Shown: piece by piece, positions 8,172 to 25,036 of the stretch
How positions within the stretch are numbered: the first letter of the stretch is position 1
How the letters are laid out: each line of letters starts with the position of its first letter
Origin: a virus
Length of the DNA: 25,036 nucleotides
Direction: 5' to 3' (one strand)
Virus record (IMG/VR): IMGVR_UViG_3300000116_000100
Coordinates: 7,757 to 32,792 of that record
Notes under the pieces: generated by a model
The model's database searches: none
Seen by the model: only the letters and a program-made list of their open reading frames with translations
What the model was told of the DNA's origin: nothing
Made by a program: the position numbers and the translations under genes

Positions 8172-9710
8172 ATGGAATATGAAGAAGTAGGTACAGTAGC
8201 TAAACGCTACCACCAGCTTGAGAGTGAACGTGATACGTTCCTTGAAAGAGGCCGTGAGGCAGCAAAGCTAACCATTCCTACTCTCATGCCAGAGGAAGGC
8301 CATAGTAGTTCATCTACTTATGCCACACCTTATCAAGGCATTGGAGCAAGGGGTGTAAACAACCTCGCATCAAAGTTACTTCTTGCTCTGCTACCCCCTA
8401 ACAGTCCGTTCTTCCGTCTAACCATTGATGACTTTGACCTGCAATCTATAGCAGGTGATGCACGTGGTCAGGTAGAAGAAGGACTTGCTCGTATTGAACG
8501 GGCAGCAATGCAAGAAATTGAAGGTAAGTCTATACGTGTCCCTACATTTGAGGCACTAAAACTACTTATCGTTACTGGCAATGCTCTAGTATACATGCCT
8601 AAAGAGGGTGGTATGAAGGTCTTCAGACCTGACCGCTACTGTACTAAGCGTGATACTATGGGTAACATACTAGAAATTATTACTAAGGAAACTGTGTCAC
8701 CACTGATGCTACCAGATGCAGTGAAGGAAATCATTCCCCCTTCTGATACACCAGTTAAGAACTATGACCTATATACCTGTGTTAAGACCACTGAGAAGGG
8801 GTACTCTGTACACCAAGAGGTAGCAGGTATTGAAGTTCCTAGTTCACGTGGAACATTTAAGAAGGACCAGAACCCATTCATTCCATTACGCTTTATCCGC
8901 ATTGACGGTGAAGACTATGGGCGTGGTTTCATCGAAGAATACCTTGGAGACTTACGTAGTCTTGAGGCACTGACACAGGCCATCGTGCAGGGTAGTGCCG
9001 CTTCATCTAAGGTTCTATTCTTGGTACGTCCTAATGGCAACACTAAGTCAGCTTCACTAGCTAAAGCAGCTAATGGTGCCTTCCTGAGTGGTGACGCTAA
9101 CGATGTATCTACACTACAGGTACAGAAATCAGCAGACTTCCGTGTAGCCCTTGAGACTATGCGGATGATTAACGATAGACTAGCCGCCGCCTTCCTACTT
9201 AACAGTAGTGTACAACGGTCAGCGGAACGTGTAACAGCAGAAGAAGTACGCTTCATGGCACAGGAACTAGAGACATCACTAGGTGGTGTATACTCTATTC
9301 TGTCTCAGGAGTTCCAGCTTCCTCTGATTAACCTACTACTTGAGTCTCTTACTAAGCAGGGTAAGATGCCTCGTATGCCTAAGGATAGTGTACAGCCTAC
9401 AGTTGTCACGGGTATTGAGGCATTAGGTAGAGGTCAAGACCTAAACAAACTCGCTACATTCTTACAATACCTACAGCCACTTGGCCCTGAGGTTATTGCT
9501 AGTGAGATGAACTTAGGTGATTACATTGACAGACTAGCCGCATCACTAGGCATTGATACTTCTGGCCTGATTAAATCAGCAGAGCAGAAGCAACAAGAAC
9601 AGATGATGCAACAACAAATGCAACAACAACAAATGTTAGAACAAACAGCTATGGGTATGGCACAGGGTGCCGCACCACAATTAGCTAAAGGCGCAGTAGA
9701 AGCGGAGTAA
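8172..9710 (+). CDS. Portal (head-tail connector) protein, T7 gp8-like
   Basis: A 512-residue portal protein; 12 copies would form the connector ring at the capsid vertex used for DNA packaging and tail attachment. Strong similarity to T7 gp8 is visible: GARGVNNLASKLLLALLPP near 58-76, LRFIRIDGEDYGRGFIEEYL, LGDLRSLEALTQAIV, AAAFLLNSSVQRSAERVTAE, LGGVYSILSQEFQLPL and GIEALGRGQDLNKL. The C-terminus is Gln/Met-rich (EQMMQQQMQQQQM near 477-489), as in many podovirus portals. AAGGG lies 8 bases before the ATG. It is followed after two bases by the scaffold gene. Length fits the family (T7, 536). Confidence 0.97.
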   Translation: MEYEEVGTVAKRYHQLESERDTFLERGREAAKLTIPTLMPEEGHSSSSTYATPYQGIGARGVNNLASKLLLALLPPNSPFFRLTIDDFDLQSIAGDARGQVEEGLARIERAAMQEIEGKSIRVPTFEALKLLIVTGNALVYMPKEGGMKVFRPDRYCTKRDTMGNILEIITKETVSPLMLPDAVKEIIPPSDTPVKNYDLYTCVKTTEKGYSVHQEVAGIEVPSSRGTFKKDQNPFIPLRFIRIDGEDYGRGFIEEYLGDLRSLEALTQAIVQGSAASSKVLFLVRPNGNTKSASLAKAANGAFLSGDANDVSTLQVQKSADFRVALETMRMINDRLAAAFLLNSSVQRSAERVTAEEVRFMAQELETSLGGVYSILSQEFQLPLINLLLESLTKQGKMPRMPKDSVQPTVVTGIEALGRGQDLNKLATFLQYLQPLGPEVIASEMNLGDYIDRLAASLGIDTSGLIKSAEQKQQEQMMQQQMQQQQMLEQTAMGMAQGAAPQLAKGAVEAE

Positions 9711-9712
9711 GA

Positions 9713-10474
9713 ATGGTAGACACAGTTAATACTTATCAAGAACCTGAGGCTGAGAATCCAGAGCATGTTAAAGAAATGCTTGAGAAGGTAGAGGGTAATC
9801 AAACAGACCCTGACCGTCCTGATTGGTTGCCTGAGAAATTTAAGAGTCCTGAGGATATGGCTAAAGCTTACTCTGCATTAGAGGGTAAGCTAGGCCAGCC
9901 TAAGGAAGAAGTAGAAGAAGCACCTACTGAAGAAGCTGACGGTACAGAGACAGCATCTGAGGTGTCTGAGTTACTAGATAGTAAGGGACTAGACTTCAGC
10001 GTATTCGAGCAGGAATATGCAGCAAATGGTCAGCTATCTGAGGACGCTTACACTGCACTAGAAGAGGCAGGTTTCCCTAAGTCTATGGTAGACTCATGGG
10101 TAGCAGGGCAGGACGCTCTAGCCTCTCAGGTGACAGCAGAGATGCACTCCATCACAGGTGGTGCAGATGAATACAACAACATGGTACAATGGGCATCAGA
10201 TTCTCTACCAGAAAACGAGATAGATGCCTTTAATGCAACAATGGAAACGCAAGACCCTAATATGATTAGGCTTGCTATCCAAGGTCTAAACGCACGTTAT
10301 CGTTCTGAGGCAGAACCTACTCTATTACAGGGTGGCAATAGTTCTGTATCCACAGGCGGGAAGTTCGAGAGTAATGCGGAACTCACTGCTGCTATGAGTG
10401 ACCCTAGATACGCTAAAGACCCTGCCTACAGGCAATCAGTAGCTGATAAGTTAGCTAAGTCTAGCCTGTTCTAA
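9713..10474 (+). CDS. Capsid assembly scaffolding protein, T7 gp9-like
   Basis: A 253-residue acidic, helical protein that would fill the prohead during assembly and leave before maturation. Support: location between portal and capsid, the conserved PDWLPEKFKSPEDMAKAYSA near 38-57 common in podovirus scaffolds, a Glu-rich segment (EEVEEAPTEEADGTE), and a basic, helical C-terminus (DPRYAKDPAYRQSVADKL) of the kind that binds coat protein. GCGGAG is 6 bases before the ATG. The gene is followed by a 327-base non-coding gap containing the capsid leader. Confidence 0.93.
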   Translation: MVDTVNTYQEPEAENPEHVKEMLEKVEGNQTDPDRPDWLPEKFKSPEDMAKAYSALEGKLGQPKEEVEEAPTEEADGTETASEVSELLDSKGLDFSVFEQEYAANGQLSEDAYTALEEAGFPKSMVDSWVAGQDALASQVTAEMHSITGGADEYNNMVQWASDSLPENEIDAFNATMETQDPNMIRLAIQGLNARYRSEAEPTLLQGGNSSVSTGGKFESNAELTAAMSDPRYAKDPAYRQSVADKLAKSSLF

Positions 10475-10490
10475 CATTGTTGCATGGGTT

Positions 10491-10508
10491 GGGAGATTAA
10501 GTTCTCCC
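10491..10508 (+). terminator. GGGAGA hairpin after scaffold gene (possible weak terminator)
   Basis: GGGAGA pairs perfectly with TCTCCC around a 6-base TTAAGT loop, starting 16 bases after the scaffold stop codon. The following TTCCTTCT is pyrimidine-rich but not a true T run, so termination would be weak. The last base is shared with the 5' arm of the long inverted repeat, so the two structures can coexist or compete. It may be a terminator, processing site or mRNA 3'-end stabiliser. Confidence 0.45.
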
Positions 10509-10663
10509 TTCCTTCTAAATACATGAATACACCACCGAAGTTACGTCATACGTGCAGAAGATTCGCTACCTTAGGACGTTATAGATACGGTCGCTACGGG
10601 CAGGTGTCAGGTCGAGGTAACAGGTAGTGCTGACCTCGCCCTTCTTATGTATTTAGAAGGAAG
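10508..10663 (+). ncRNA. Structured capsid-leader RNA closed by a 17-bp inverted repeat
   Basis: CTTCCTTCTAAATACAT (10508-10524) is the exact reverse complement of ATGTATTTAGAAGGAAG (10647-10663). A G-U and an A-U pair can extend it inward. The enclosed 122 bases hold further pairings. CGAGGT (10613-10618) pairs with ACCTCG (10633-10638), continuing as CAG (10621-10623) with CTG (10630-10632) across an AA bulge. GGGC (10598-10601) can pair with GCCC (10638-10641). ACGTC (10543-10547) can pair with GACGT (10575-10579). No open frame with a ribosome site is seen here. It is likely a structured 5' leader or RNase III-type processing element of the capsid mRNA; the boundaries are guesses beyond the inverted repeat. 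Confidence 0.6.
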
Positions 10664-10675
10664 CTAACCCTTCCT
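10658..10675 (+). promoter_or_regulatory. Competing hairpin sharing the 3' arm of the long repeat
   Basis: AGGAAG (10658-10663) pairs perfectly with CTTCCT (10670-10675) around a CTAACC loop. AGGAAG is also part of the 3' arm that pairs with 10508-10513. CCCTTCCT occurs identically at 10506-10513 and 10668-10675, so two copies of one strand compete for the same partner. This is a mutually exclusive arrangement like those in attenuators, but no regulator is known. The rest of the gap to 10801 shows a short CCCT/AGGG hairpin at 10712-10723 and the capsid ribosome site, and nothing else I can support. Confidence 0.4.
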
Positions 10676-10786
10676 AACACGAAGTAAACAAGACAAACGA
10701 TTACCCCTGACCCCTTGCGAGGGACAATCTTGGAGAAAGGATGTAGTGTAATACAGAGTGTACTCAACTCAACTATTATACTCACT

Positions 10787-10792
10787 AAGGAG
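10787..10792 (+). promoter_or_regulatory. Strong ribosome binding site of capsid gene
   Basis: AAGGAG sits 9 bases before the capsid ATG at 10802, followed by an A/T-rich spacer (TAATTTAA) free of obvious pairing. This favours heavy translation of the most abundant virion protein and fixes the start at 10802. Confidence 0.75.
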
Positions 10793-10801
10793 TAATTTAA
10801 A

Positions 10802-11923
10802 ATGGCACAAGCTGCTTCAAATCCCGCCTATAGCGTAAGCTTTCAAGGCCAGAATAACAACACAGGTGACGTACGTGACCTCTTCCTTAAGCTTTATGCA
10901 GGTGAAGTTCTCACAGCATACGAAGAGAAGAAAGTCCTTATGGACAAAGTACGCACTCGCACAATCTCTAAAGGTAAGTCTGCCTCATTTCCAATGACAG
11001 GACGAGCCACTGCTGAATACCTGACCCCCGGAAACGAGATTACTGGTGGACAGATTCGTGCAGGTGAACGCATTGTAACTATTGATGACTTGCTCATCTC
11101 TAGCCAGTTCATTGCTAACATTGACGAAGCCATCAACCACTACGATGTTCGTTCAATCTACTCAAAAGAAGCTGGTATTGCACTAGCTAATGAAGCTGAC
11201 CGTAACGTAGCACGTATGCTTGTTAAGGCTGCCTTGTCAACTAACGCGACAGCCGCCGCTGGTCTTATCCAAGACTACAAAGGTTTCTCTGAAGAAGACT
11301 TCACTGGTAACGTCACTGTTGGTGCAGCTACTGCTGACCTACTTGACCCTGCTAAGATTGCTAAAGCTATCTTTGATGCCAAGAAGACAATGGACATTGC
11401 TAATGTTCCTTCAGAAAATGCAGTCGTAGTTCTTCCACCAGAGCAGTACTATGCACTGATGGATGTAACAGATGGTTCAAAGCTGACATACATGAACTCA
11501 GACTTTGGTGGTAACGGTTCTGTTGCCTCAGGTATGGTTCCAGCTATTGCAGGTATTCCTGTAATCATGTCAAACCATGCTAACGTGTCTAACCTGTACA
11601 CTAACTTCACCACAGGTGATGCTGCTGAAGGTAAGACATCAGACAACGCACCACTAGCTAACACTGCTGGTTCTGGACGCGCAACACACTATGACCTGCC
11701 AACAGCCGCTGTTGATGGTCGTGACATGGTTGCAGAAGCCTCACTAATTAAGGGCTTTGTCTTTACACCTGAGTCAGTTGCTACTGTTAAGTTGCTTGAC
11801 CTTGGCATGGAGTCTGAGTATCAGATTAACCGTCAGGGTACACTCATGGTTGCTAAGTACGCAATGGGCCACAACGTCCTACGTCCTGCATCATGTATCG
11901 CATTGCTTGACGCAGACGCTTAA
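10802..11923 (+). CDS. Major capsid protein, T7 gp10A-like (HK97 fold)
   Basis: A 373-residue major coat protein, against 345 for T7 gp10A. Matching segments: LKLYAGEVLTAYEEKKVLMD near 29-48, ISKGKSASFPMTGRATAEYL, IVTIDDLLISSQFIANIDEA, NHYDVRSIYSKEAGIALA, a P-domain-like DAKKTMDIANVPSENAVVVL, and the C-terminal MVAKYAMGHNVLRPASCIAL, which is almost diagnostic of this family. It has its own strong ribosome site and a structured leader, and ends in a strong terminator, so a discrete abundant mRNA is likely. No slippery run like that producing T7 gp10B is seen near the end. Confidence 0.97.
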   Translation: MAQAASNPAYSVSFQGQNNNTGDVRDLFLKLYAGEVLTAYEEKKVLMDKVRTRTISKGKSASFPMTGRATAEYLTPGNEITGGQIRAGERIVTIDDLLISSQFIANIDEAINHYDVRSIYSKEAGIALANEADRNVARMLVKAALSTNATAAAGLIQDYKGFSEEDFTGNVTVGAATADLLDPAKIAKAIFDAKKTMDIANVPSENAVVVLPPEQYYALMDVTDGSKLTYMNSDFGGNGSVASGMVPAIAGIPVIMSNHANVSNLYTNFTTGDAAEGKTSDNAPLANTAGSGRATHYDLPTAAVDGRDMVAEASLIKGFVFTPESVATVKLLDLGMESEYQINRQGTLMVAKYAMGHNVLRPASCIALLDADA

Positions 11924-11930
11924 ATATCTA

Positions 11931-11959
11931 GGGGGTAGCTTAACGGCTACTCCCTTTTT
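11931..11959 (+). terminator. Rho-independent terminator after capsid gene
   Basis: GGGGGTAGC (11931-11939) pairs with GCTACTCCC (11946-11954) as a 9-bp stem with one G-U pair and a TTAACG loop, followed directly by TTTTT (11955-11959). It begins 7 bases after the capsid stop. It would end or strongly reduce transcription before the tail genes, lowering their level relative to capsid, as the T7 terminator after gene 10 does. Confidence 0.9.
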
Positions 11960-11974
11960 ACTTTGGAGTAAGTG

Positions 11975-12229
11975 ATGAGTATTACACACGCAGGAGAAAC
12001 CTTTAGAGGTTTAAGGATACCTAAGAGTTCGCCCAAGGGTACTAAGTCCCACGCTGTCCTAGTAGGTACTAAGGAAAGTCCTAAGATAATTAGGTTCGGT
12101 GAGAAGGGTGCTAAGACTAATCAATCAGCAAAGCAACGTAAAGCGTTTAAAGATAGACACGCTAAGAACATAGCCAGAGGTCCGTCTAGTGCGGCATATT
12201 GGGCCAACAAGGTTAAGTGGAAAGCATAA
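11975..12229 (+). CDS. Small basic phage protein of unknown function
   Basis: An 84-residue, Lys/Arg-rich protein. ATG 11975 has GGAG 6 bases upstream; a GTG at 11972 is less well spaced. Visible pattern: HAGETFRGLRIPKSSP, SHAVLV, IIRFGEKGAKTN, a central KQRKAFKDRHAKNIARG and the end SSAAYWANKVKWKA. I recall this RFG...RHxKNI...AAYWANKxKW pattern from short conserved proteins in several phage genomes, but cannot name a function. It sits right behind the capsid terminator and 11 bases before the tail tube gene, so a virion or DNA/RNA-binding role is plausible. The ribosome site of the next gene overlaps its stop. Confidence 0.75.
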   Translation: MSITHAGETFRGLRIPKSSPKGTKSHAVLVGTKESPKIIRFGEKGAKTNQSAKQRKAFKDRHAKNIARGPSSAAYWANKVKWKA

Positions 12230-12240
12230 AGGTAAATGGT

Positions 12241-12825
12241 ATGGCAGGAACAACACAATTAGATGCAGTCAACACGATGCTTTCTGCCATTGGCGAAGCA
12301 CCAGTAAGTAGTCTATCCTCAGGTTTGATTGAGGCAGAGATTGCAGAGACTATTCTTAACACAGTAGACAGAGAAGTACAGTCAACAGGCTGGCACTTTA
12401 ACACAGAATTAAATAAGACATTCGCTCAAGACACAGCAGGTGAGATTATCCTACCAGCTAACATCCTTAGAGCAGATGCAACACTAGCCGCTGAGAGTCC
12501 TAACTTGGTCCAGCGTGGCTTAAAGATGTATGACAGAACTAACCACACCTTTAACATAGGTGCTTCTACACAGTTAGATGTAACAGTACAACTAGACTTT
12601 GGTGATTTACCTGAGGTAGCAAAGCGTTACACTATTCTACGTTCTACCCGTATCTTCCAAGACCGTGTAGTAGGTTCTAATACATTACATGATTTTCAAT
12701 TAAGAGATGAGGCACTTGCACTTGCAGAGCTTAAAGAGTTTGACAAGGCAGCAGATGACCACAACATCTTTGACAACTATGACACATATTCTATTATTGA
12801 TAGGCAGGGACGGAGAACACTCTAA
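12241..12825 (+). CDS. Tail tubular protein A, T7 gp11-like
   Basis: A 194-residue tail tube (adaptor) protein that would ring the portal beneath the capsid. The start at 12241 is chosen over 12217 because AAAGG lies 8 bases upstream and because the T7-like beginning (TTQLDAVNTMLSAIGEAPVS) follows directly. Other matching parts are TILNTVDREVQSTGWHFNTE, VQRGLKMYDRT and RTILRSTRIFQDRVVGS-type segments near the middle. The stop overlaps the gp12 start (TAATG). Confidence 0.94.
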   Translation: MAGTTQLDAVNTMLSAIGEAPVSSLSSGLIEAEIAETILNTVDREVQSTGWHFNTELNKTFAQDTAGEIILPANILRADATLAAESPNLVQRGLKMYDRTNHTFNIGASTQLDVTVQLDFGDLPEVAKRYTILRSTRIFQDRVVGSNTLHDFQLRDEALALAELKEFDKAADDHNIFDNYDTYSIIDRQGRRTL

Positions 12826-15167
12826 TGGCACTCATCAGTCAATCTATTCCTAATCTTATTAACGGTGTATCACAACAGCCACCCTCTCTGCGTCTAAACA
12901 CACAGGCAGAGCTACAGGAGAATGGATTGTCTAGTGTGGTGTCAGGACTATCTAAGCGTCCTAGTACAACCCATGTAGCTGACTTAGGTGTTATTAGTAA
13001 CCTAGACAAAGCCTTTGTTCACACTATCCGCAGAGATGAGAACGAGTTCTACTCTATGGTAGTAGATACTGCGGGTACTATTAAGGTCTTTGACAAGGAT
13101 GGCGTATCTAAGACTGTAACTAATAATGCAGCAAGCTACCTATCAGGACTAACAGACCCTAGCCAAGAGCTATCTGCTGTATCTATTGCTGATTCTACAT
13201 TCATTGTAAATAAGAATACTATAATAGCTAAAGGCACAGCAACATCCTCTAGCCGTAATCCAGAGGCTTTAGTATATGTCAAACAGGCTGACTACTCTGC
13301 TACCTATAGACTGGTATTAACCAAGGGTGGAAGCACAAGTACAGTAGAGTTTGCTACTAAGTCATCTACACAGTCATCTACGGCTGAGACACAGAACGCA
13401 GAGCGTGGTGCGTCAACTGATTTGATTGCAGAAAACTTAGCTACATTCTCAGGCACTAGTGTAAGTACAACCTACTACCAGAACATTACTAACGGTTCGG
13501 CTGTAACAGGTTTAACCGTCACACTATACGGCTCAGTACTACACATTCAGTCTTCAGATGCTACAGATTTCCAAGTAGAAGTAGGTGACTCACACGGTGG
13601 GGACCACTTGCTAGTATTCAAGGATGAGACAGCAGACTTCAAGAAGCTACCTGTAGAGGGACCAGCTAACTTTAGCATTAAAGTGTCGGGTGATAACCAG
13701 AAGGCACAGGATGATTACTACGTTACTTTCACTGACGAGAGTGTGTGGAAAGAATCACTAGAACCTTCAGCACTTACACAGCTAGACGCATCTACTATGC
13801 CTCACAAGTTATTAAAGCTTTCTAATGGTAACTTTCAGTTTGACCCTACAACCTACAAGGACAGAAAAGTAGGGGATGATGATACTAATCCCTTCCCATC
13901 CTTCATTGGCTACCCTCTAGCTGACATCTTCTTCCATAGAAATAGACTAGGTGTATTGGCAGATGAGAATGTAATCTTCTCTCGTGCTGGTGAGTTTGAG
14001 GAGTTTGACTTCTTCCGTAAGTCTGTACTAACTATTGTAGATAGTGACCCCATTGATGTGGCAGTGTCCTCTAACAAGGTTAGTATACTTAAACACGCTA
14101 TACCCTTTAACGACAGTCTACTCCTCTTCTCAGACCTTACACAGTTTAAGCTTACTGCTGACCCTGTGCTTACACCTGAGACAGTCAACATCTCTAACAC
14201 TACAGAGTTTGAGGCCAGTCTCAGAGCCAAGCCAGCACAAGCAGGTAAGTATGTATACTTCGCATCTAAGCGTGGCGCATGGTCTGGTATGTGGGAATAC
14301 TTTGTAGACACTGACACTGATACTAACGATGCTACAGAGATTACAGCACATGTTCCTGAGTATTTAGATGGTGAAGTAAAGAACATCCAAGCCTCGTCTA
14401 ATGAGGATATGCTTATCGCACAGACAACTAATGACCCTACAGCCCTTTACGTGTATAGATACTACTGGCAGGGCAGAGAGAAGCTACAGGCTTCATGGTC
14501 ACGCTGGACGTTTGGTGGAGATGTTATAGGTTATTCCTTTAACAGGGCTGATATTACAATCCTAGTTAAGAGAGGTAGTAACTTATTTCTTGAACGTATT
14601 AACCTATCCGTAGACACAGCTACCACCTACACTACTGGTGCCTTCTCTATCCACTTAGATAGACGAGTGACGTTAGAGACAGGTGGTACTACTACACTAC
14701 CATACACTGACTCCTCTGCTATCTACATAGACCAGACAGGCGGTATCATACCCTTGTCGGCTGTAGCAGGTAAGCTGTCAGATAGTCAGGTAGTCTTTGC
14801 GGGTGTTCCATTTACCTTTAAGTATACGTTCTCTGAGCCTGTAGTTAAGGACCAGAACAAACCTATTACTACTGGACACTTACAACTTAGAAACTATGCA
14901 GTAGTGTACAACAACACAGGCTTCTTTGAAGTAGACGTAGCCCCTCTAAGAAGGGACGTATACACTAGAAGCTTCACAGGACGTATCGTTGGCGGTGCTA
15001 ACAACATCCTTAACCAAGCCGCTGTGGACTCTGGTACTTACCGCTTTGGTGTACTAGGTAAGTCCACTAGCACAACTGTAACTCTTAAAAGTAGTAGCCA
15101 TCTACCCTGCACATTCCAATCAGCAGAGTGGGAAGGCTTCTTCGTTCTACGTTCAAGGAGAATGTAA
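12825..15167 (+). CDS. Tail tubular protein B (nozzle), T7 gp12-like
   Basis: A 780-residue tail nozzle protein, close to T7 gp12 (794). The N-terminus is characteristic: SIPNLINGVSQQPPSLR near 7-23, then AELQENGLSSVVSGLSKRPS. Further hallmarks are FHRNRLGVLADENVIFSRAG in the middle, LKHAIPFNDSLLLFSDLTQF, and a Trp-rich WSRWTFGGDVIGYSF segment. It would form the tip of the short tail and hold the fibres with gp11. The start overlaps the gp11 stop by one base and its stop overlaps the next start in the same way, so the tail genes are translationally coupled. Confidence 0.96.
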   Translation: MALISQSIPNLINGVSQQPPSLRLNTQAELQENGLSSVVSGLSKRPSTTHVADLGVISNLDKAFVHTIRRDENEFYSMVVDTAGTIKVFDKDGVSKTVTNNAASYLSGLTDPSQELSAVSIADSTFIVNKNTIIAKGTATSSSRNPEALVYVKQADYSATYRLVLTKGGSTSTVEFATKSSTQSSTAETQNAERGASTDLIAENLATFSGTSVSTTYYQNITNGSAVTGLTVTLYGSVLHIQSSDATDFQVEVGDSHGGDHLLVFKDETADFKKLPVEGPANFSIKVSGDNQKAQDDYYVTFTDESVWKESLEPSALTQLDASTMPHKLLKLSNGNFQFDPTTYKDRKVGDDDTNPFPSFIGYPLADIFFHRNRLGVLADENVIFSRAGEFEEFDFFRKSVLTIVDSDPIDVAVSSNKVSILKHAIPFNDSLLLFSDLTQFKLTADPVLTPETVNISNTTEFEASLRAKPAQAGKYVYFASKRGAWSGMWEYFVDTDTDTNDATEITAHVPEYLDGEVKNIQASSNEDMLIAQTTNDPTALYVYRYYWQGREKLQASWSRWTFGGDVIGYSFNRADITILVKRGSNLFLERINLSVDTATTYTTGAFSIHLDRRVTLETGGTTTLPYTDSSAIYIDQTGGIIPLSAVAGKLSDSQVVFAGVPFTFKYTFSEPVVKDQNKPITTGHLQLRNYAVVYNNTGFFEVDVAPLRRDVYTRSFTGRIVGGANNILNQAAVDSGTYRFGVLGKSTSTTVTLKSSSHLPCTFQSAEWEGFFVLRSRRM

Positions 15168-15625
15168 TGCAAGGCTATGTGAGAAAAAGTACACAAGAAG
15201 ATGTAGACTATCTGGTAGATAACTTAAGACCAGAAGATGCACAAGAGGTACAGGCATCACATGGTAGTACAAGAGAAGCGTTACAGATGGGGTTTGATGA
15301 CTCAGATGAGTGTTGGACTATTATAGTAACAGACACAGAAGAGATAGCAGGTATCTATGGAGTATCTAGGTATGATGAAATGACAGGTATACCTTGGTTA
15401 CTAACAACACCTGCTATCACTAAAGTGTGGCGACCCTTCCTACGTGGTTCACGTGAGTGGGTAAAAGAAATTAATAACAGGTACCCCCTGTTGACTAACG
15501 CAGTGGATGCAGACTACACACTAGCTATTAACTGGCTACGCTTTGTCGGCTTCACATTCATAAAGAAATATGATACGTGGGGTGTAGGAAACAAACCCTT
15601 CTTAGAATTTGTGAGGATACGATAA
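15167..15625 (+). CDS. Internal virion protein A, T7 gp13-like (GNAT-like fold)
   Basis: A 152-residue protein in the position of T7 gp13 (138 residues). The ATG at 15167 has AAGGAG 6 bases upstream; an upstream in-frame start at 15128 inside gp12 is rejected. The sequence CWTIIVTDTEEIAGIYGVSR, the Trp-containing central part (TKVWRPFLRGSREWVKEI) and the end NWLRFVGFTFIKKYDTWG follow the acetyltransferase-like pattern seen in gp13-type proteins, where the fold is present without known enzymatic use. In T7 gp13 is needed for particle infectivity. It overlaps both neighbours by one base. Confidence 0.82.
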   Translation: MQGYVRKSTQEDVDYLVDNLRPEDAQEVQASHGSTREALQMGFDDSDECWTIIVTDTEEIAGIYGVSRYDEMTGIPWLLTTPAITKVWRPFLRGSREWVKEINNRYPLLTNAVDADYTLAINWLRFVGFTFIKKYDTWGVGNKPFLEFVRIR

Positions 15626-16248
15626 TGGACCCGATGACCATGATGAGTATCGGTCAATCTGTAATGGGCTTTATGGCACAGAAACGCCAAGCAGCTGCGG
15701 ATGAGGCACGATACCAACAGAATAGAATAGCGGCAACAACCGCACGTGATTTAAAGATACAGAGTCTTAATCGTAGAGCTATTCAAGAAGCTGAGAGTAT
15801 TACAGGGCAGAAGATTGACCTAGCTATTAAGGCACTTGAGACAAGAGAATCACAGGTAGTAGCCGCAGGTGAGGCTGGTGTAACTGGTCAAACAGTAAAG
15901 CTTCAGCAGGACAAGACTGAAGCTCGTAAGCTTCGTGGTGATATGATTTACAATGCCCAAATAGGCGGCATACTTCAGCAGATAGAAGATGAAAAAGCAG
16001 GTGCAGATGCACAGGCAATGAGTCGTATAAACTCTATGGCTAGGGGGCAAGAGCCTAGTATGATGGGTGCTGTTCTTGGAGCCGCTTCTAGTGCTTACTC
16101 TACTGAATTACAGATAGCAGGTAGAGGTGAGGGTAGTTTCTTAGAGGGCATAGGACTAGGCGGTGCGCCTATCGGTGGTGCTGACCCTAAGAGTAAGACT
16201 AACTTTATCATTAGACAAGCTACGCCAGAGATGATGCCTACTTGGTAA
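15625..16248 (+). CDS. Internal virion protein B, T7 gp14-like
   Basis: A 207-residue protein in the position of T7 gp14 (196 residues), which is ejected first and forms a pore in the outer membrane. The start at 15625 overlaps the gp13 stop and is preceded by GAGGA; a longer frame from 15577 is rejected. The N-terminus is Met-rich and weakly hydrophobic (MTMMSIGQSVMGFMAQK), followed by a long charged helical region (residues about 25-140) and a Gly-rich part (GEGSFLEGIGLGGAPIGG). Low sequence conservation is normal for this family; assignment rests on position, size and helical pattern. Confidence 0.83.
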   Translation: MDPMTMMSIGQSVMGFMAQKRQAAADEARYQQNRIAATTARDLKIQSLNRRAIQEAESITGQKIDLAIKALETRESQVVAAGEAGVTGQTVKLQQDKTEARKLRGDMIYNAQIGGILQQIEDEKAGADAQAMSRINSMARGQEPSMMGAVLGAASSAYSTELQIAGRGEGSFLEGIGLGGAPIGGADPKSKTNFIIRQATPEMMPTW

Positions 16249-16271
16249 TATAGAAAGTAATAGGAAAAGAC

Positions 16272-19220
16272 ATGGCAGAACAACGAGTACAAGTTAGGGA
16301 GTTAGCTCTTCCTCAGGGTGTAAGTCCTACAGCAAGTCCAGTTGAGACTTACGTAGCTCCCGCTGAAATTCAAACACAACCTAGCCAATTAGAAGAATTT
16401 GTTTCTGCTCTAGCCCCTGCTTTCAAAGCTAATGCAGAGCTTACACGTGTTGAACGTCTAAGAGATGAACAAGAAATTAGAAATAATACTAGAGCTAACC
16501 AGTTAAACCAGATGGATAAAGCTGCTCTAAATCTTGGTGGTATGATGAGCCAAGATTACGTAGCTAATAAAGAAACACTATTAAATAATAAGGTGCCAGA
16601 AGCAGAGTTTCGTGAACATTACGAAAAGTTTATAGATAACTGGTATACTGGTTTAGGTGATATTAGTCCTGTTGTTAAAGACAGAGGCTTAAGACAAGCA
16701 CGTATGAACTTGGAAGAACTTGTAATAAAGTCATACAGACCTGACTTAGCTACGAGAGCAGACCAAGATTTAGATGAGAGTTTCTTTGGCTCACTAACAA
16801 CCCTATCAGGGGTACTAGCACCAGACCAAGTTACTGTAGATGAGGTAGGTCGTCAACTTGATAGTACCATAGCCGCTAACCCTAAGGGTGATTTAAAGGC
16901 TACTCGTCAGTATTGGAATGACAAACTTGTAGACTACGCAGTGGAACAAGCTAAGTCTAATCCCTTTGACCCTGTTATTCAGTTTACCATGAATAAGATT
17001 TTAAAGTCTGGTAGATATGTTGAGCAACGTGTGGCTATTGAGAAAGCACAAGCAGTAACTACTTCTAGTACTAACAAAGTTGCTAAAGATAAAGCTGTAG
17101 CTGTCCATATTGACGCTGTTACAGAAACAGTTTTGCAAGGGACAGCCGCTGCTGTTAATCTAGAAACTCCTACTACCTTACAAACAGAAGATGGCACTTT
17201 AGTAGAGCATAAAGTAACTGCAACTGAGATAGCTACAGTCTTAAACGAAAAGACTATGCTTGAGTTAATACAACATGACAAGCAGAGAGTAGAAATAGAA
17301 GAAAGTACTATACTATCTGATGTAGAAAAAGAAGATGCTCTAGCTGTACACGCTCAAAAGAAAGCTCTACTAAAACGTGAACATTTTGCAGCTTACGCTA
17401 CTATTGGTAAAGTACCGCCAGAGTATATAACAGCCCGAAGAGATGCTACTGCATCCTTCTTTGCAGACTTAACTAACCCTGAGGCTGTTGGTAGAGCAGA
17501 ACTAGCTTTTACAAAACTAGAGGAACTTGAGTCATACTTTGGCGAACAGGGTACCTCTAAAATCTTTGCAGGTGACAAGCAACTAGGACAGGCTTATGAA
17601 GTTATTAAGTCAGCACTAGAAGCCAATGTATCTTTTAAAGATGCTGTAGACATGGCGCAGAAGTTTGACAAGGAAGGACTACCTGAGTTTACCCTCACTG
17701 ATGTCGAGTTATCAGAGCTAATTGACCCTAGTATGTTTACATTTACTAATTTAGATGAGGTAGCTAACATGGGTGTTATGACAGCAGATGTCATCAACTT
17801 AGCTACTATTAAGATGGGTACTAGTAACGGATTGGTTACAAAAGAAGAAGCTATTGCCTATGCTGTGGAGCAAGTAAAGAAAGATTACCAAACACTACAA
17901 CAACCTGATGGTACTTATATAGCAATCAAGGCAGAAAACTTTGCCCACACTGAGCGTAGTGTAAACGGGGCTGAAAGAGCCTTAGGGGTAGCTATGAATA
18001 ATCCAGAGTTTGTTATAGCTATCCAAGAGAAGTTTGGTATCCAGCCTAAGTCTTCCCTACAGCTTACTACAGGTCTGCTAGGTTCTGGTAGACCTTTGTT
18101 TGCAGACACTAAGGGCTTTACACTTAACGTCTCTAACAGCTTAAACAATTCTAATCAGTTAGATATATATGCTGTGGAAACTGACAGTGACGGTAAGATG
18201 ATGCCTACTGGCTTTAGACATTTAATTGGTAACATTGACATGACTACTATTGATAAACAGACTAGGTATAAGTTTATTGATGATACGATGGGTAACTATC
18301 AGCAAACTGTAGCTCCTCTTACAGCCTCTACTCCTGAGTCTGAGTTAGGTCTTAGTTCTTTAGACATGGATGAGGAAGTATTAGACTTTACTCCTACAAC
18401 CAGTAAGAGTTTTGCTGAGATGTCTAGTGTTGATGAGTTTCTAGCAACACCTGTGATGCAGGATATAGCAAAGGGTTTTTCTTTAGATAACGAAATACTA
18501 CAAGCAGGTTTAGACCTTAACAACGATGCAGCAAATTATATCATGGACACAGCCTCTAATGTTGTTGATACTGTGACAGACTTCTTTACAGACGATACAG
18601 CAGAAGCTTCTGAGATAGTACCTAGTGAAACATCAGTAGTACCTAGTAGTGAAGTATCACAGAGAACTTTTACTGACAGCACTGTAGACACTACTAGTAT
18701 TGTAGGTGACACAGTAGCAGACAAAGCTGCTAACCTTATTCAGGTACAGGAAGACTTCAAAGCTAACCCATATCCAGATGGTAAGAACAAATCTGTAGGT
18801 TATGGTTTCTATCTACCATCACTAGAAGCTGATGAGAAGGCATTGATTAAAGATGTCAACAACATAACAGAGCCAGAAGCACAGGCTGTTATGAAGCTTA
18901 AGGTGTCAAAGATTACTGAGTTCATGCAGAATGAAATAGATAACTTTGATGGCCTACCAGAGAGTACACAGTTAGCTGTTACAAGTATGGCTTTCCAGTT
19001 GGGAAGACAGAACGTGAGAGATGATTGGCCTAAGTTTATGACTGCTATTAAGAAAGCGTCTGGCCTACCTACTGGTTCTACTGAGCAGTTAGAGGCTCTT
19101 GAAGAAGCTTCTACACATATGCTGTTTAACGTGAAGAATGGTAAACAAACTAAGACAGGTTGGCATAATCAAACACCTAACAGAGCTAATGAAATGGCTA
19201 GGTTTGTAAAAGGAACATAA
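16272..19220 (+). CDS. Internal virion protein, gp15-like, with C-terminal lysozyme-like domain
   Basis: A 982-residue protein in the gp15 position, some 235 longer than T7 gp15 (747). The long N-terminal part is helical and charged. A Ser/Thr-rich linker (about 775-815) leads to a C-terminal domain resembling GH24/T4-type lysozymes. E827 (VQEDF), D836 (PYPD) and S841 (KSVGYGF) sit where T4 lysozyme has E11, D20 and T26, with spacing 9 and 5 against 9 and 6. The usual GH in GxGH is G845-F846. Downstream helices include STQLAVTSMAFQLGRQNV, like the family's second half, and GWHNQTPNRANEMARF near the end. It would cut peptidoglycan during DNA ejection. Activity is inferred. Confidence 0.87.
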   Translation: MAEQRVQVRELALPQGVSPTASPVETYVAPAEIQTQPSQLEEFVSALAPAFKANAELTRVERLRDEQEIRNNTRANQLNQMDKAALNLGGMMSQDYVANKETLLNNKVPEAEFREHYEKFIDNWYTGLGDISPVVKDRGLRQARMNLEELVIKSYRPDLATRADQDLDESFFGSLTTLSGVLAPDQVTVDEVGRQLDSTIAANPKGDLKATRQYWNDKLVDYAVEQAKSNPFDPVIQFTMNKILKSGRYVEQRVAIEKAQAVTTSSTNKVAKDKAVAVHIDAVTETVLQGTAAAVNLETPTTLQTEDGTLVEHKVTATEIATVLNEKTMLELIQHDKQRVEIEESTILSDVEKEDALAVHAQKKALLKREHFAAYATIGKVPPEYITARRDATASFFADLTNPEAVGRAELAFTKLEELESYFGEQGTSKIFAGDKQLGQAYEVIKSALEANVSFKDAVDMAQKFDKEGLPEFTLTDVELSELIDPSMFTFTNLDEVANMGVMTADVINLATIKMGTSNGLVTKEEAIAYAVEQVKKDYQTLQQPDGTYIAIKAENFAHTERSVNGAERALGVAMNNPEFVIAIQEKFGIQPKSSLQLTTGLLGSGRPLFADTKGFTLNVSNSLNNSNQLDIYAVETDSDGKMMPTGFRHLIGNIDMTTIDKQTRYKFIDDTMGNYQQTVAPLTASTPESELGLSSLDMDEEVLDFTPTTSKSFAEMSSVDEFLATPVMQDIAKGFSLDNEILQAGLDLNNDAANYIMDTASNVVDTVTDFFTDDTAEASEIVPSETSVVPSSEVSQRTFTDSTVDTTSIVGDTVADKAANLIQVQEDFKANPYPDGKNKSVGYGFYLPSLEADEKALIKDVNNITEPEAQAVMKLKVSKITEFMQNEIDNFDGLPESTQLAVTSMAFQLGRQNVRDDWPKFMTAIKKASGLPTGSTEQLEALEEASTHMLFNVKNGKQTKTGWHNQTPNRANEMARFVKGT

Positions 19221-19230
19221 GGGAAAACGA

Positions 19231-22200
19231 ATGGCTGATGAAACTTTTGAGAAGACCATAGCAGACATGGGGTTTGGGGGCATGTCTCCCTCTCCTGTAA
19301 ACGGTAGGTTTACGTCTGTTGAAATGGAGAAGGCTGCACAGAAAGCTAAGAAAGCTTCATCTGGATTTCTTAGTGGTTACGTCAATCAACAGTTTGCAGA
19401 AGGAACTACGGCTGCAACAGTAAGACTTTTCTCTGATGCTCCTGAGGATAACACACCCTTTAGTACTGACATTGCTAGAGAATTGACAGCAGGTTATACT
19501 GATACTAACCTTATTGAAAAGGTTATTGACGCAGGTGTAAACAAAGGAACAGGGGCTGCACGTAAAGTAGCACATGAAATAGGTGTGGTAGAAGAGTCAC
19601 GTGCTAGAACAGCACAAGGTGATGGCTCCTACTTTACAGGTAGTATGGCGGGGTACGCTTTAGACCCTGTGGATACTAGTGCGGCTCTTGCTACTGCCGC
19701 CGCTGTGTCAGCTATGCAACCTCAGTTTGCTCCTGTTACTGGTACCGCTACCTTCTTAGGTGTTAAGGGTTATAGGTTTCTAAGTAAAGTAGCTCCTCAA
19801 GTAAAGTACTATATGGGTGCTACTGGTATTGGTGCCGCTGAACAGGCAGGTCTTGAGCTATTACGCGCACAGACTGTACACCAAGTTACTGGACGCGATG
19901 TTATGTTAGCGGCCTCTATAGGTGGTGCGATTAACTACGGTGTTAGTAAGTATGCAGTATACTCAGCTAAGAAACAACAAATACTACTTGCTTCTCAGAA
20001 GAAAGTTAATGGTGAAGAGCTTACTCCTCAGGATGAGGCTGTACTAAAGGCTGCTTCTGATGAAGTACTAGCTAATCACTTTATTGACCTAGCTCATCGT
20101 AATGATGACTTTGGTACAGGAACTGATGAAGCACTACAACAGACAGCAGGAAGTAGCACAGCGGGTGTAACTCGTAAAGATATTACTGAGATGACACAAG
20201 CAGAGATTGAGGCTACTCCTGCACAGCGTGGTAGGTTTGTAAAAGCCAGAGGTTTAGTGGCTTCTATAGCACCTATTATAAACTCTACAGATGGGCTTAC
20301 ACGTTGGTTAGGTAGAGGCTTGGCCTTAGATAGTCTAGGTGTTAAGGGTGGTAAAGGTGTAGTAGGTGGTAACGCACTAGAAACACGTGATATGATTATC
20401 ACTACTACACAACTACCAAACGCTATAGAACTAGGTAAGCTTTATGAATCTGCGGCAAAGAAACTTAACCTTCGGGTAAGCCAAGTAGAAGAGTTAGTAG
20501 GGGATTATGGTCGTGTACCTGACCCTACTGCTATCGAAGAGATTAAGAAAATTGCTAAAATCTACGAGGTTGCTAAAGATAAAGTAGCGCAGATGGCTGT
20601 TGACGCTAACGCCGCTGGCTTTCTTCCTGAGATGATGGGTAACATTAAGAACTACTTACCTCGTAAAGTTAATAGAACTAACGTATCTGAGTTTAGATTA
20701 GGTACCAAGCAGACAGCGGCCAAGCTTCCTGACGTTGAAGGAGATATTAACCCTGCGTTTGTAGACCTAATGGAAGGTGCTATTCGTAGTGAACAGAAGG
20801 ACATTGTTAGAACTGTAACAAAGTCTCTGAAGGACGCTGGTAAGAAGAACATTACTGCAAAGAAAGTAAATACCTTTATTAGAGCTATGGCCCGTGGATA
20901 CGCTAAAGGTTTCTTAACTCCTTCTAGTAATGAGTTCCGTAAACTTGGCGATGGTATGGCTGATATGGATGATACTAAGGCAGCACTAAAGGCCGCAGGT
21001 ATCGCTGACGAAGACGTTGATGTAATGTTAGACGTACTATCAAAGAACATACCAGTTAAGGGACACCCTCGTACTAAACATCGTATGCGTCTTGACGAAG
21101 GCTTTTCACTAGCTGTCAAGGGTTCAGATGGTGAAGTATTTACTTTAAAGATGTCGGACATTTTAGAACGTAATGCTAGAAGTCTACACGAAAGTTACTT
21201 GTTTCAAGTAGCAGGTGCAGTAGGACTAGCACAGAATGGTATTAATACTAATACACTTGGTTCTAACTTTGACACTCTTATGGGTAAGCTACCTACTGGT
21301 ACTCCTGATGCTGATAATGCACGTAAGCAACTAGACTTTTTATATAAAAGTGTAACAGGTAAGTTAGCTTATGAGAGTGGTTTCTCAGCAGGTACTCAGA
21401 GAACACTAGCACGTGTACGTGAATACGGGTTTGTTGCTAACATGGGTATGTCAGGGATGTCTGCTATTATGGAGTTTACTAACGTAGTGTTTGAAAGTTC
21501 TTTTGAAACTCTACTTAAGACTGCTCCTCAGTTTAAGAATTTAATTCTTGATGCATCCACTGGAAAACTAAAGAACAAGGTAGCACATGAGATGATGGTA
21601 GCTACTGGCTCTGGTGGTGATGGTATGTTGGTTAAGGTTACATCACAACGTAACAGACTAGAGGGCGGTATTGCTGAAGGTGAGGACTTTATTGGTTCTG
21701 GTGAAGTAACTAGGTTAGATGAGATGTTAGGTAAGGCACGTATCTTTGTGTCTATGGCCTCAGGTCTTCAAGGTGTAACAGATATGTTACGAAGATTGTC
21801 TACCTATAACTTTGCAACAGAAGTAGCAATGAAAGCACAGAGAGGTGAAGTAGCCTTTTCAGCTATTAAGCGTGAACAGATGGGCATCACAGATGAAGTA
21901 GCTCTTGAGATTAATAATCAAATCAGGAAACACTCACAGTTTGTAGATGGTGATACGTTAGACTCTATCAATCTTAATGCATGGGATAATACACCAGCAG
22001 GTCAGGCAGCTAAGAATGTGTTCATTCGTGCCGCTAGGCGTGAGTCTCTACAATCTGTACAGGAAGTTAATAATGGTTCTGTTAGTTACTGGCTACGTAG
22101 TGAGGTAGGTAAGAGTTTATTTCAATTCTTATCATTCCCTATGGCTTCTCTAGAACAACAAGCAGGACGCTTTGCTGTACGTGCGGCTAATGGAGATGCT

Positions 22201-22611
22201 GTAGATGTTGCAAAGATTTTAACATCTGGTGCTGCATTAGGTACTCTTATGTATATTGCCCGTTCTCATATGAACTCTCTAGGTCGTAGTGACAGAGAGG
22301 AGTACATGAAAGAACGTATGAAGTTTGGTAATGTAATGTATGGCGCACTAGGTCAGATGGGTCCAAGCTCTATGTTCCATTGGGTTTACGAAGTATCTAC
22401 AGGAGCTATGGATGGTTCTACTAAGGCTGTAACTCCTGCCGCTGCTGGAATGTTAGTAGGCACTCTATCAGGAGTTAAAGACCTTGCACAGGCTATAGCT
22501 GGTGATGATTTAACTGAATCAGAAATGCGTAGTATGTTGAGACTGTTACCCTTCTCCTCTCTCTACGGAGCTAGGCAACTATTAAACGCATCAGCTAGGA
22601 TAGTAGACTAA
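19231..22611 (+). CDS. Internal virion protein D, T7 gp16-like, no visible transglycosylase domain
   Basis: A 1126-residue protein in the gp16 position; T7 gp16 has 1318 residues, forms part of the ejection channel and carries an N-terminal lytic transglycosylase. Here the N-terminus (FEKTIADMGFGGMSPSPVNG) leads into Ala/Gly-rich, weakly hydrophobic segments (GSMAGYALDPVDTSAALATA near 139-158) and no SLT catalytic pattern is seen. Long helical regions follow, with LRSEVGKSLFQFLSFPMASL near 950 and a C-terminal region (GMLVGTLSGVKDLAQAIAG, LLPFSSLYGARQLLNA) typical of large podovirus internal proteins. AAGGGAAAA precedes the ATG. Muralytic function seems to have moved to the upstream gene. Confidence 0.88.
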   Translation: MADETFEKTIADMGFGGMSPSPVNGRFTSVEMEKAAQKAKKASSGFLSGYVNQQFAEGTTAATVRLFSDAPEDNTPFSTDIARELTAGYTDTNLIEKVIDAGVNKGTGAARKVAHEIGVVEESRARTAQGDGSYFTGSMAGYALDPVDTSAALATAAAVSAMQPQFAPVTGTATFLGVKGYRFLSKVAPQVKYYMGATGIGAAEQAGLELLRAQTVHQVTGRDVMLAASIGGAINYGVSKYAVYSAKKQQILLASQKKVNGEELTPQDEAVLKAASDEVLANHFIDLAHRNDDFGTGTDEALQQTAGSSTAGVTRKDITEMTQAEIEATPAQRGRFVKARGLVASIAPIINSTDGLTRWLGRGLALDSLGVKGGKGVVGGNALETRDMIITTTQLPNAIELGKLYESAAKKLNLRVSQVEELVGDYGRVPDPTAIEEIKKIAKIYEVAKDKVAQMAVDANAAGFLPEMMGNIKNYLPRKVNRTNVSEFRLGTKQTAAKLPDVEGDINPAFVDLMEGAIRSEQKDIVRTVTKSLKDAGKKNITAKKVNTFIRAMARGYAKGFLTPSSNEFRKLGDGMADMDDTKAALKAAGIADEDVDVMLDVLSKNIPVKGHPRTKHRMRLDEGFSLAVKGSDGEVFTLKMSDILERNARSLHESYLFQVAGAVGLAQNGINTNTLGSNFDTLMGKLPTGTPDADNARKQLDFLYKSVTGKLAYESGFSAGTQRTLARVREYGFVANMGMSGMSAIMEFTNVVFESSFETLLKTAPQFKNLILDASTGKLKNKVAHEMMVATGSGGDGMLVKVTSQRNRLEGGIAEGEDFIGSGEVTRLDEMLGKARIFVSMASGLQGVTDMLRRLSTYNFATEVAMKAQRGEVAFSAIKREQMGITDEVALEINNQIRKHSQFVDGDTLDSINLNAWDNTPAGQAAKNVFIRAARRESLQSVQEVNNGSVSYWLRSEVGKSLFQFLSFPMASLEQQAGRFAVRAANGDAVDVAKILTSGAALGTLMYIARSHMNSLGRSDREEYMKERMKFGNVMYGALGQMGPSSMFHWVYEVSTGAMDGSTKAVTPAAAGMLVGTLSGVKDLAQAIAGDDLTESEMRSMLRLLPFSSLYGARQLLNASARIVD

Positions 22612-22649: not shown

Positions 22650-24104
22650 ATGGCTTTTTCATATCATAATTATACAGGGGATAACTCGACAACTACGTTT
22701 AGTATTCCCTTTACATACACAGACACTAGTGAAATTAGTGTAACAGTTGATGGTGTGGCTGAAACTGGCCTTACTTTTCCATCTTCTTCCGAAGTAACTC
22801 TGACCTCTGCACCTGCGTCTGGTACGCTAGTACAAGTCAGACGTACTACAACCCTCACATCACGTACAGTAGACTTTGCCTCAGGTTCAGTACTGACAGA
22901 GGAAGATTTAGATAACTCTAACATTCAGGTCTTCCATGCGGCTCAAGAGGCTGTAGACACAGCAGGTGATGCTATTACCCTTGGTGCTGATGACAAGTGG
23001 GATGCACAGAGTAAGGTTATTAAGAACGTAGCTGCTCCTGTAGCTAACACTGACGCTGTGAACAAGCAGTTCATCTCTACTAACCTACCTAACATCAGTA
23101 CAGTGGCAGGTATTAACACAGAAGTAACAACAGTAGCAGGTATTGCTAGTGATGTGACTACTGTTGCAGGTATTAATGCTAATGTAACTACTGTTGCTAC
23201 AAATGATACAAATGTTTCTTCTGTAGGTACTAACATAACTAACGTAAATAAGGTTGCCGCTATTGATGCTAATATAACTACTGTTGCCGCTATTGATGCT
23301 AATATAACTACTGTTGCAGGTGTTTCAACAGAAGTTACTTCAGTTGCAGGAGTCTCTTCTTTAATTACAGCAGACTTTGTGAGCGACTTAAATACTCTAG
23401 CAACAGCCCCTATTGTAACAGACTTAGATGCGCTTGCTGACTTATCTACAGAGATAGATGCATTAGGTGACATCACATCTGCAATTTCAGGTGTTAATAG
23501 TAACTCTTCTAATATTAATGCTGTTGCAAGCAACGAAACTAACATTAACTTAGTTGCCGCTGATATTGGCACTATAGCCACTAAAGCAAATGCTGGCGCA
23601 AACTCTGACATTACATCTTTATCTGGCCTTACTACAGCACTAAGCGTTGCTCAAGGTGGTACAGGTGCAACGTCTGCATCAGCGGCTCGTACTGCGTTAG
23701 ACCTTGAAGTTGGTGTTGATGTTCAAGCATTTGATGCTGACATTGTTGCAAAGGATGTGACTAACGTATTCACCAAAGCACAAGTGCCAAGCACCTACAC
23801 TGGCTCTGCTCTGACTCTAGACTTCGACACATATCAGAACTTCATAATTACATTAGCGGCTGGCTCTAACACGCTTGCGGCTCCATCCACTGAGGCTGGT
23901 AACGTAGGTCAGACAGGCACTATTATCTTTATCAACCCGTCATCAGGTGCGGCGGCAACATTGTCTTTGCATGGTGATTATGAATCTGTTGGCGGTGCTG
24001 GACTAACAATATCAGCGACTAACGATGCTTATGATGTCGTGCCTTACATTATTAAAGCAGACAACTCTATTTTGTTAGGCGCACCACAGTTAGGATTTGC
24101 ATAA
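22650..24104 (+). CDS. Tail fibre protein with gp17-like N-terminal attachment domain
   Basis: A 484-residue fibre. The N-terminal 140 residues match the T7 gp17 tail-attachment domain: FSYHNYTGDNSTTTFSIPF, VQVRRTT, LTEEDLDNSNIQVFHAAQEA and DKWDAQSKVIKNVAAPVANT. Nine decapeptide repeats follow at 151-240 on the pattern TVAGIxxxVT, likely a trimeric shaft, and looser repeats continue to about 310. A common fibre linker motif (VAQGGTGATSASAARTAL) sits near 330-350, before a small beta-rich C-terminal domain without a recognised chaperone or enzyme motif. Its stop overlaps the next gene's start (TAATG), suggesting the receptor-binding part is on the following protein. AAGGA is placed 6-7 bases before the ATG. 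Confidence 0.92.
   Translation: MAFSYHNYTGDNSTTTFSIPFTYTDTSEISVTVDGVAETGLTFPSSSEVTLTSAPASGTLVQVRRTTTLTSRTVDFASGSVLTEEDLDNSNIQVFHAAQEAVDTAGDAITLGADDKWDAQSKVIKNVAAPVANTDAVNKQFISTNLPNISTVAGINTEVTTVAGIASDVTTVAGINANVTTVATNDTNVSSVGTNITNVNKVAAIDANITTVAAIDANITTVAGVSTEVTSVAGVSSLITADFVSDLNTLATAPIVTDLDALADLSTEIDALGDITSAISGVNSNSSNINAVASNETNINLVAADIGTIATKANAGANSDITSLSGLTTALSVAQGGTGATSASAARTALDLEVGVDVQAFDADIVAKDVTNVFTKAQVPSTYTGSALTLDFDTYQNFIITLAAGSNTLAAPSTEAGNVGQTGTIIFINPSSGAAATLSLHGDYESVGGAGLTISATNDAYDVVPYIIKADNSILLGAPQLGFA
23100..23369 (+). repeat. Nine tandem 30-bp/10-residue units in tail fibre
   Basis: Nine consecutive in-frame units of exactly 30 bases code for decapeptides on the pattern xVAxIxxxVT. 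Two neighbouring units (23253-23282 and 23283-23312) are identical base for base, indicating recent duplication or conversion. Others have diverged in the variable positions 6-8. Exact period and frame suggest a structural repeat in the fibre shaft whose number can change by slippage. Confidence 0.9.
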
Positions 24105-25036
24105 TGGCTAATTTCTCAAATGATGTTTGGATGGCTAGTACAGCCGCTGGCTTCTATCCGCACAGCATAGACCAGAGCTTGCGCTTTGAGGATGGCGATA
24201 GTGCTTACCTATCTCGCACACCTTCATCTGCTGGAAACCGTAGAACGTGGACTTGGAGTGGCTGGGTAAAGCGTGGCAATTTAGGCGGAGACCAGTTGCT
24301 GTTTGACGCCTCGTCGGCTTCAGCAAATCAATGCAGAATATACATAAGAAATAATAATGACCTTCAAGTGGATGACTATAACGGTAGTTTTCAAATGAGA
24401 CTAACCTTAAGCCCACAGCTTAGAGACGTTTCAAGTTTTTATCATTTTGTAGTTTCTGTGGATACAACGCAATCAACAAGCTCAAATAGAGCAAAAGTCT
24501 ATATAAACGGCACCTTGCAAACCAGTTTTACAAATGAAGTATATCCATCACAAAATTATGAAACTAACTTTAATCAAGCAACCGCTCATTCAATAGGGCG
24601 AAGAACATATAACAATGATTTCTTCTTTGATGGCTACATGAGCGAAGTAAACTTCATTGACGGAACAGCGCTTGGGCCTGACAGCTTCGGGGAATTCAAA
24701 GACGGTATCTGGGTGCCGAAGGATGTCAGCGGCCTGACCTATGGCACTAACGGCTTCCACCTCGACTGGGCAGACAGCAGTGCTATCGGTAATGATGTTT
24801 CTGGAAATGACAATGACTTCGCTGTGTCTGGCCTTGTTGCCTCAGATGTTGTGCTAGACAGCCCGACGAATAACTTTGCTGTTTTGAACGCAGTCAATAA
24901 GCACACCGGCGCAACCCTTAGTGAAGGAAATTTGAAAGTTACGCACGACGTCGGTGGCGGCGACTGTCCAGCAACAATGGCTTTGCCATCGGAGGGCAAA
25001 TGGTATTGGGAAGTTAAATGCACGAACAATGCGAAT
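24104..25036 (+). CDS. Receptor-binding/tail adhesin with LamG-like and SPRY-like regions, 3'-truncated
   Basis: The frame from ATG 24104 stays open for all 311 codons to the window edge, so the gene is real but incomplete. It starts MANFSNDVWMASTAAGFYPH. A LamG/concanavalin-like jelly-roll is suggested at about 24-190 by SLRFEDGDSAYLSRTPSSAG, WTWSGWVKRG, FYHFVVSVDTT, KVYINGTLQTSF, HSIGRR and FDGYMSEVNFIDGTAL. A link of LDWADSSAIGNDVSGNDNDF type follows, then SEGKWYWEVKCTNN at the end, which looks like the opening strand of a SPRY domain. Such modules bind carbohydrates or proteins in phage adhesins. It is coupled to the fibre gene by TAATG. Base composition is patchy. The target receptor cannot be read from the sequence. 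Confidence 0.87.
   Translation, partial: MANFSNDVWMASTAAGFYPHSIDQSLRFEDGDSAYLSRTPSSAGNRRTWTWSGWVKRGNLGGDQLLFDASSASANQCRIYIRNNNDLQVDDYNGSFQMRLTLSPQLRDVSSFYHFVVSVDTTQSTSSNRAKVYINGTLQTSFTNEVYPSQNYETNFNQATAHSIGRRTYNNDFFFDGYMSEVNFIDGTALGPDSFGEFKDGIWVPKDVSGLTYGTNGFHLDWADSSAIGNDVSGNDNDFAVSGLVASDVVLDSPTNNFAVLNAVNKHTGATLSEGNLKVTHDVGGGDCPATMALPSEGKWYWEVKCTNNAN

Follow-up and report, generated by a model that had tools for sequence, protein, structure and literature searches.

The window analysed here, 25,036 nucleotides long (G000:C1:7757-32792), is part of a 32.8-kb record from an uncultured virus and has a T7-like gene order: portal, scaffold, capsid, tail tube proteins A and B, gp13-like and gp14-like proteins, a protein of 982 residues, a gp16-like protein and a T7-type tail fibre. 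The gp12-gp14-gp15-gp16 order is present, all on the + strand, as tail tube protein B (gp12-like; 12825..15167; phrog_457, E = 1.2e-224), a gp14-like ejection protein (15577..16248; Pfam T7_gp14, E = 5.5e-16), the 982-residue open reading frame (16272..19220) and a gp16-like ejection protein of 1126 residues (19231..22611). Two further reading frames lie elsewhere in the window: a small one at 2622-3248, with a DNA polymerase gene on one side and an exonuclease gene on the other, matches phage families of unknown function and, weakly, a homing endonuclease family; another, following the tail fibre at 24104-25036 and ending with the window, carries a laminin-G/concanavalin-like domain (Pfam, E = 5.7e-14) and is possibly a second receptor-binding or virion protein.

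The 982-residue protein has no PHROG match, and we call it gp15-like by its position between the gp14-like and gp16-like genes, in keeping with a review according to which most gp15 assignments are based on size and synteny (PMC8954989). Resemblance to known families is limited to its C-terminus. The body shows no detectable sequence homology to T7 gp15 (hhalign, E = 0.39) and gives no alignment with the body of phiKMV gp36, the lysozyme part of which alone aligns; a tblastn search with the whole protein against 50,697 phage records returned no match at E 1e-3, and cultured relatives were therefore sought via the tail tube protein. Residues 776-812 (18597..18707, + strand) form the Ser/Thr-rich linker that the earlier note had pointed out, with a Ser plus Thr content of 41% against 14% in residues 1-775.

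For comparison we used 80 of 255 relatives identified by their tail tube proteins, together with 10 gp16 relatives. The gp15 alignment comprises 36 hand-picked complete proteins (the window's and those of 35 other loci), leaving out duplicates or near-duplicates (L007, L008, L016, L038, L055, L062, L063, L069, L071, L076, L077, L087 and L092) and reading frames cut by contig ends; the gp15 of L102, incomplete in the stretch fetched, was left out of alignment A6. Among these 36 distinct proteins, 31 carry a lysozyme domain, the window's included.

The proposal that the gp15-like protein ends in a T4-lysozyme-like domain was put to the check that had been suggested for it, structure prediction and a fold search of the C-terminus, and a lysozyme fold was found. 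An AlphaFold model of residues 808-982 (18693..19217, + strand), computed from the 31 aligned domains with the window's own among them, reached a pLDDT of 89.9 and a pTM of 0.86; VIA-align placed it at Z 13.8 to both T4 lysozyme and the phage-21 endolysin (140-141 residues, rmsd 2.6-2.8), and Foldseek matched it to T4-lysozyme chains at E values of 1.2e-4 to 1e-3, with a pesticin-T4-lysozyme hybrid and T4 lysozyme at the top. A profile of the 31 domains likewise recovered T4 lysozyme (E = 6.4e-6) and the C-terminus of phiKMV gp36 (E = 2.1e-6). Single-sequence matches are weak: the domain alone as query matched T4-type lysozymes weakly (T4 lysozyme, E = 0.004), Pfam Pesticin was matched below the cut-off (E = 0.003), and PF00959 (Phage_lysozyme), whose cut-off the window protein does not reach, went undetected across the record with the threshold relaxed to E 10; the same family matches 7 of the 36 gp15 proteins at E<=0.1 (best 2.8e-7). 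A pesticin-like toxin was considered and set aside, the sub-threshold Pesticin match covering residues 864-927 only. We regard the predicted fold as decisive for the lysozyme identity, and on this modelling the assignment of residues ~808-982 as a T4-lysozyme-like domain (GH24-type) that follows a Ser/Thr-rich linker holds. The domain has the fold and the catalytic Glu and Asp in common with T4 lysozyme (gene e) and the phage-21 endolysin R21, which differ in being free lysis enzymes with a Thr at +6 after the Asp and with the His of the GxGH motif.

Examination of the active site placed E827 (codon 18750-18752), D836 (18777-18779) and S841 (18792-18794) in catalytic register, in agreement with the reading first made from the sequence. 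E827 and D836 stand at the T4 spacing, which is kept in 30 of the 31 domains (the exception, L089, has an insertion); Asp occupies the D836 position in all 31, and the Glu and Asp positions together hardly vary, if at all, across the set, at identities to the window's domain that fall as low as 35%. The gp15-position protein has a single copy of the motif E-8-D-4/5-[ST]-x-G-x-G, at residue 827, and the motif turned up in 72 of 20,000 shuffled versions of that protein; across 1,168 open reading frames of the scanned loci it appears in 49, whose coordinates are those of gp15-position frames or cut pieces of them. Two residues had been singled out as unusual. The replacement of the GxGH His is real: the window has Phe (F846, codon 18807-18809), all 31 domains have Phe or Leu, and phiKMV, SP6 and K1E retain the His. 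The Ser in place of Thr is not unusual, being shared with those same three phages (E-8-D-4-S in phiKMV gp36, D-4-S in SP6 gp36 and K1E gp35), in which, as here, it sits one residue closer to the Asp than the T4 Thr does. Across the 31 domains this position holds Ser in 28, Ala in 2 and Thr in 1; given the two relatives with Ala, the Ser may be dispensable.

These substitutions bear on what the domain does. Domains that lack the T4 His and have Ser or Ala where the water is placed could act as lytic transglycosylases and not as hydrolases, leaving an anhydro product as lambda endolysin does; single-Glu enzymes of lysozyme-like fold, lambda endolysin among them, act in this way according to passages of a paper on the AP3 endolysin (PMC5674055), and the two Ala-bearing domains would suit such chemistry. 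We consider this unlikely, since the invariance of Asp836 is what a hydrolase would be expected to show and the nearest folds are those of T4 lysozyme and the phage-21 endolysin. The universal loss of the His and the two Ala residues would also fit a lysozyme fold that has been kept but is catalytically dead, serving to bind peptidoglycan or as a structural part of the tunnel. That is a shade less probable again: the Glu and Asp have been kept across divergent domains, the AP3 paper gives the water-positioning role to Thr or Ser alike, and phiKMV gp36, with the same arrangement of E, D and Ser, has a C-terminal lysozyme domain (gp36C) reported as active in the relevant section of a 2017 review (PMC5380687). 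An active muramidase is the reading that we carry forward.

Attention to the neighbouring gene bears out the earlier observation that the gp16-like protein has no soluble lytic transglycosylase (SLT) motif. Its match to phrog_342 (E = 7.3e-75) spans profile positions 300-1223 of 1235, and it resembles phiKMV gp37 (E = 2.1e-14); on these sequence matches the protein is homologous to gp16 beyond the N-terminal domain. Pfam found an SLT domain in none of 29 gp16 proteins of the clade, the T7 gp16 control being positive (E = 1.7e-31), and no SLT match anywhere in the 32.8-kb record. AlphaFold gave a poor model of the gp16 N-terminus (pLDDT 47.4), and a profile of that region drew chance matches only from the PDB; a cell-wall enzyme or fold other than SLT may be present there. 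Among cultured relatives, RHEph01 has an SLT domain in its gp16 (E = 3.8e-8) and a gp15 of 674 residues without the lysozyme motif, a motif present in none of the eight gp15 proteins examined from cultured relatives found via the tail tube protein. By Pfam, SLT occurs in the gp16 of 2 of 11 phages (RHEph01 and T7) in a set of nine cultured relatives, T7 and the window, and the others may carry other enzymes or none. To the eye, the N-terminus of the 1551-residue gp16-like protein of Bordetella phage BB8 (L106:5653-10305) resembles a lysozyme of the lambda type and not SLT.

The enzyme had been described as moved from gp16 to gp15, which is too loose a description: the N-terminal SLT transglycosylase of T7 gp16, absent here, has a like role in opening peptidoglycan at ejection but differs in both enzyme family and carrier protein, so that one has replaced or bypassed the other. 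Nor is the swap new. A gp16-to-gp15 exchange of the enzyme was already stated in a 2022 review, which places a lysozyme on the gp15-position protein of K1E, gp35 (PMC8954989); phiKMV gp36 and SP6 gp36 are listed as virion lysozymes, with K1-5 as a further precedent, in sections of PMC5380687; and the cryo-EM ejectosome of PhiM1 has, as parts of its description relate, a lysozyme-like domain on its octameric ejection protein (PMC11440229). The layout of the window is expected from phiKMV, SP6 and PhiM1 and is an already known arrangement, the C-terminal lysozyme fusion to a gp15-position ejection protein corresponding, as judged from sequence, to that of phiKMV gp36 and SP6 gp36.

Each precedent differs in detail. 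Like the window's protein, phiKMV gp36 is the second of three ejection-gene products and has a C-terminal lysozyme with E-8-D-4-S and a W-x-x-QT-x-x-RA motif near its end, but it keeps the GxGH His, its body is unalignable with the window's, and it belongs to another host and lineage. SP6 gp36 and K1E gp35 (Molineuxvirinae) are similarly large gp15-position proteins (978 and 982 residues) with a lysozyme near the C-terminus and a D-4-Ser arrangement, whereas they have an extra C-terminal stretch after the lysozyme, keep the His and have a longer candidate Glu-Asp stretch. In PhiM1 the lysozyme-like domain, Gly718-Ser903, ends the gp15-like octamer protein, as here, but the phage's own gp16-like protein has an endolysin-like domain at residues 268-528 (PMC11440229), of which we detected no counterpart in the window's gp16. 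The uncultured marine lineage described here confirms that in T7-like phages the enzyme that cuts the wall can sit elsewhere than on gp16; what it adds is a demonstration, at the level of DNA, that this enzyme recombines as a unit.

That demonstration comes from comparison of the window with L007, preferred to L006 because of its longer contig. Blastn identity is 93.0% over 2985-16505, is lost over 16506-18598 (the gp15 body), returns at 88.9% over 18599-19221 (+ strand), which takes in the linker and the domain as far as the gp15 stop codon, and is absent from there onward to 21190. Identity at third codon positions follows the same pattern: it is 79-92% in the domain but falls to 36-50% across residues 1-760 of the body and to 38-52% in gp16, a contrast that rules out slow protein evolution as the sole cause of the domain's conservation. 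Recombination breakpoints thus lie at the domain borders, and the module runs from the linker to the stop codon of gp15. L091 and L089 present the converse, agreeing with the window at 65-79% of residues in gp16 but at only 37-45% in the domain. Trees of the 24 taxa shared by the set of 31 domains and that of 29 gp16 proteins conflict: the grouping seen in gp16 is rejected on the domain data (p-AU 6.4e-7), and that seen in the domain is rejected on the gp16 data (p-AU 1.8e-6); the two clades tested were picked with the identities already known. Taken together, the L007 pattern and the conflicting trees identify the domain as a recombining module, and the modular exchange that had been surmised is seen directly in DNA. 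L007 also matches the 13.5 kb that precede the gp15 body at 93% identity, which fits transfer of the domain or replacement of its flanks alike, and a comparison of GC content with the gp15 body (0.400 in the domain, 0.397 in the body) gives no compositional sign of recent import of the domain.

We conclude that the region very probably encodes a virion-associated T4-type (GH24-like) muramidase, fused through the flexible linker to the C-terminus of the gp15-position ejection protein of an uncultured marine T7-like phage, that takes the place of the SLT of T7 gp16 and recombines as a module. By analogy with phiKMV, SP6, K1E, PhiM1 and T7, which guide us on virion location, enzymatic activity, timing and a role in the tunnel, the ejection proteins would leave the head upon adsorption and the gp15-like protein would build a periplasmic tunnel, while the tethered lysozyme would cut peptidoglycan glycan strands locally and let the tunnel cross. 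In this scheme the general acid would be E827, with D836 as the second catalytic residue and S841 positioning the water; the gp15 domain, which is exchanged among related phages as one unit from linker to gp15 stop codon, would assume the role of the N-terminal transglycosylase of T7 gp16. That the gene instead makes chiefly a lysis enzyme, an endolysin produced as a fusion, is very improbable. In its favour, a search with four Pfam families found no separate endolysin in the record, which shows little for a record that may be a fragment; against it, the domain is in frame with a 775-residue body inside the ejection gene cluster, while phiKMV has a separate lysozyme gene for lysis and its similar fusion, gp36, is listed in sections of PMC5380687 as a virion-associated lysin.

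The relatives of the gp15-position protein vary in what follows, or replaces, the lysozyme. Sorted by eye, the tails of the 31 lysozyme-bearing proteins fall into 10 that end with the lysozyme, 15 that add a CHAP/TIGR02594-type domain (L091, L090, L068, L043, L025, L037, L035, L002, L056, L032, L053, L003, L064, L052 and L060) and 6 that add a further unassigned module. Over all 36 proteins, TIGR02594 matches 16 (best E = 1.6e-15) and CHAP 14 at E<=0.1 (best 4.7e-8); the added domain would probably cleave the peptide side, as an amidase or endopeptidase. The five proteins without lysozyme comprise one with CHAP alone (L049), one with the unassigned module alone (L050), two that look SLT-like by eye (L046 and L079) and one in which nothing was detected (L005). 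Whether the gp15-position C-terminus in this marine lineage is an exchange slot for cell-wall enzymes is, on this variety, an evenly balanced proposition. If it is, host cell-wall chemistry might select the enzyme used at ejection, and the relatives, in which nature has combined various enzymes on a single ejection protein, could be used to address such selection by host peptidoglycan.

The tandem enzymes of these relatives are a better lead than the window's own layout. Virion lysins with two lytic domains all come from phages of Gram-positive bacteria, by the statement in the relevant section of the 2017 review (PMC5380687), and our searches of open-licence full texts turned up no description of a lysozyme-CHAP tandem on an ejection protein. 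Judging from the type of phage, the hosts here would be Gram-negative; two complementary cutters on a single ejection protein of such a phage would, if real, contradict that statement. The Cys and His typical of CHAP appear, by eye, to be conserved in the tandem C-termini. In the last ~240 residues of L079:9310-12273 and L046:10583-13546, which match no Pfam family above the cut-off, an SLT-like motif (HES ... GxxQ) can be made out, without lysozyme. The extra module follows the lysozyme in L072, L022, L010, L009, L070 and L074, and the same module replaces it in L050; L010 and L050 match phrog_7348, annotated 'endolysin', at E about 1e-9.
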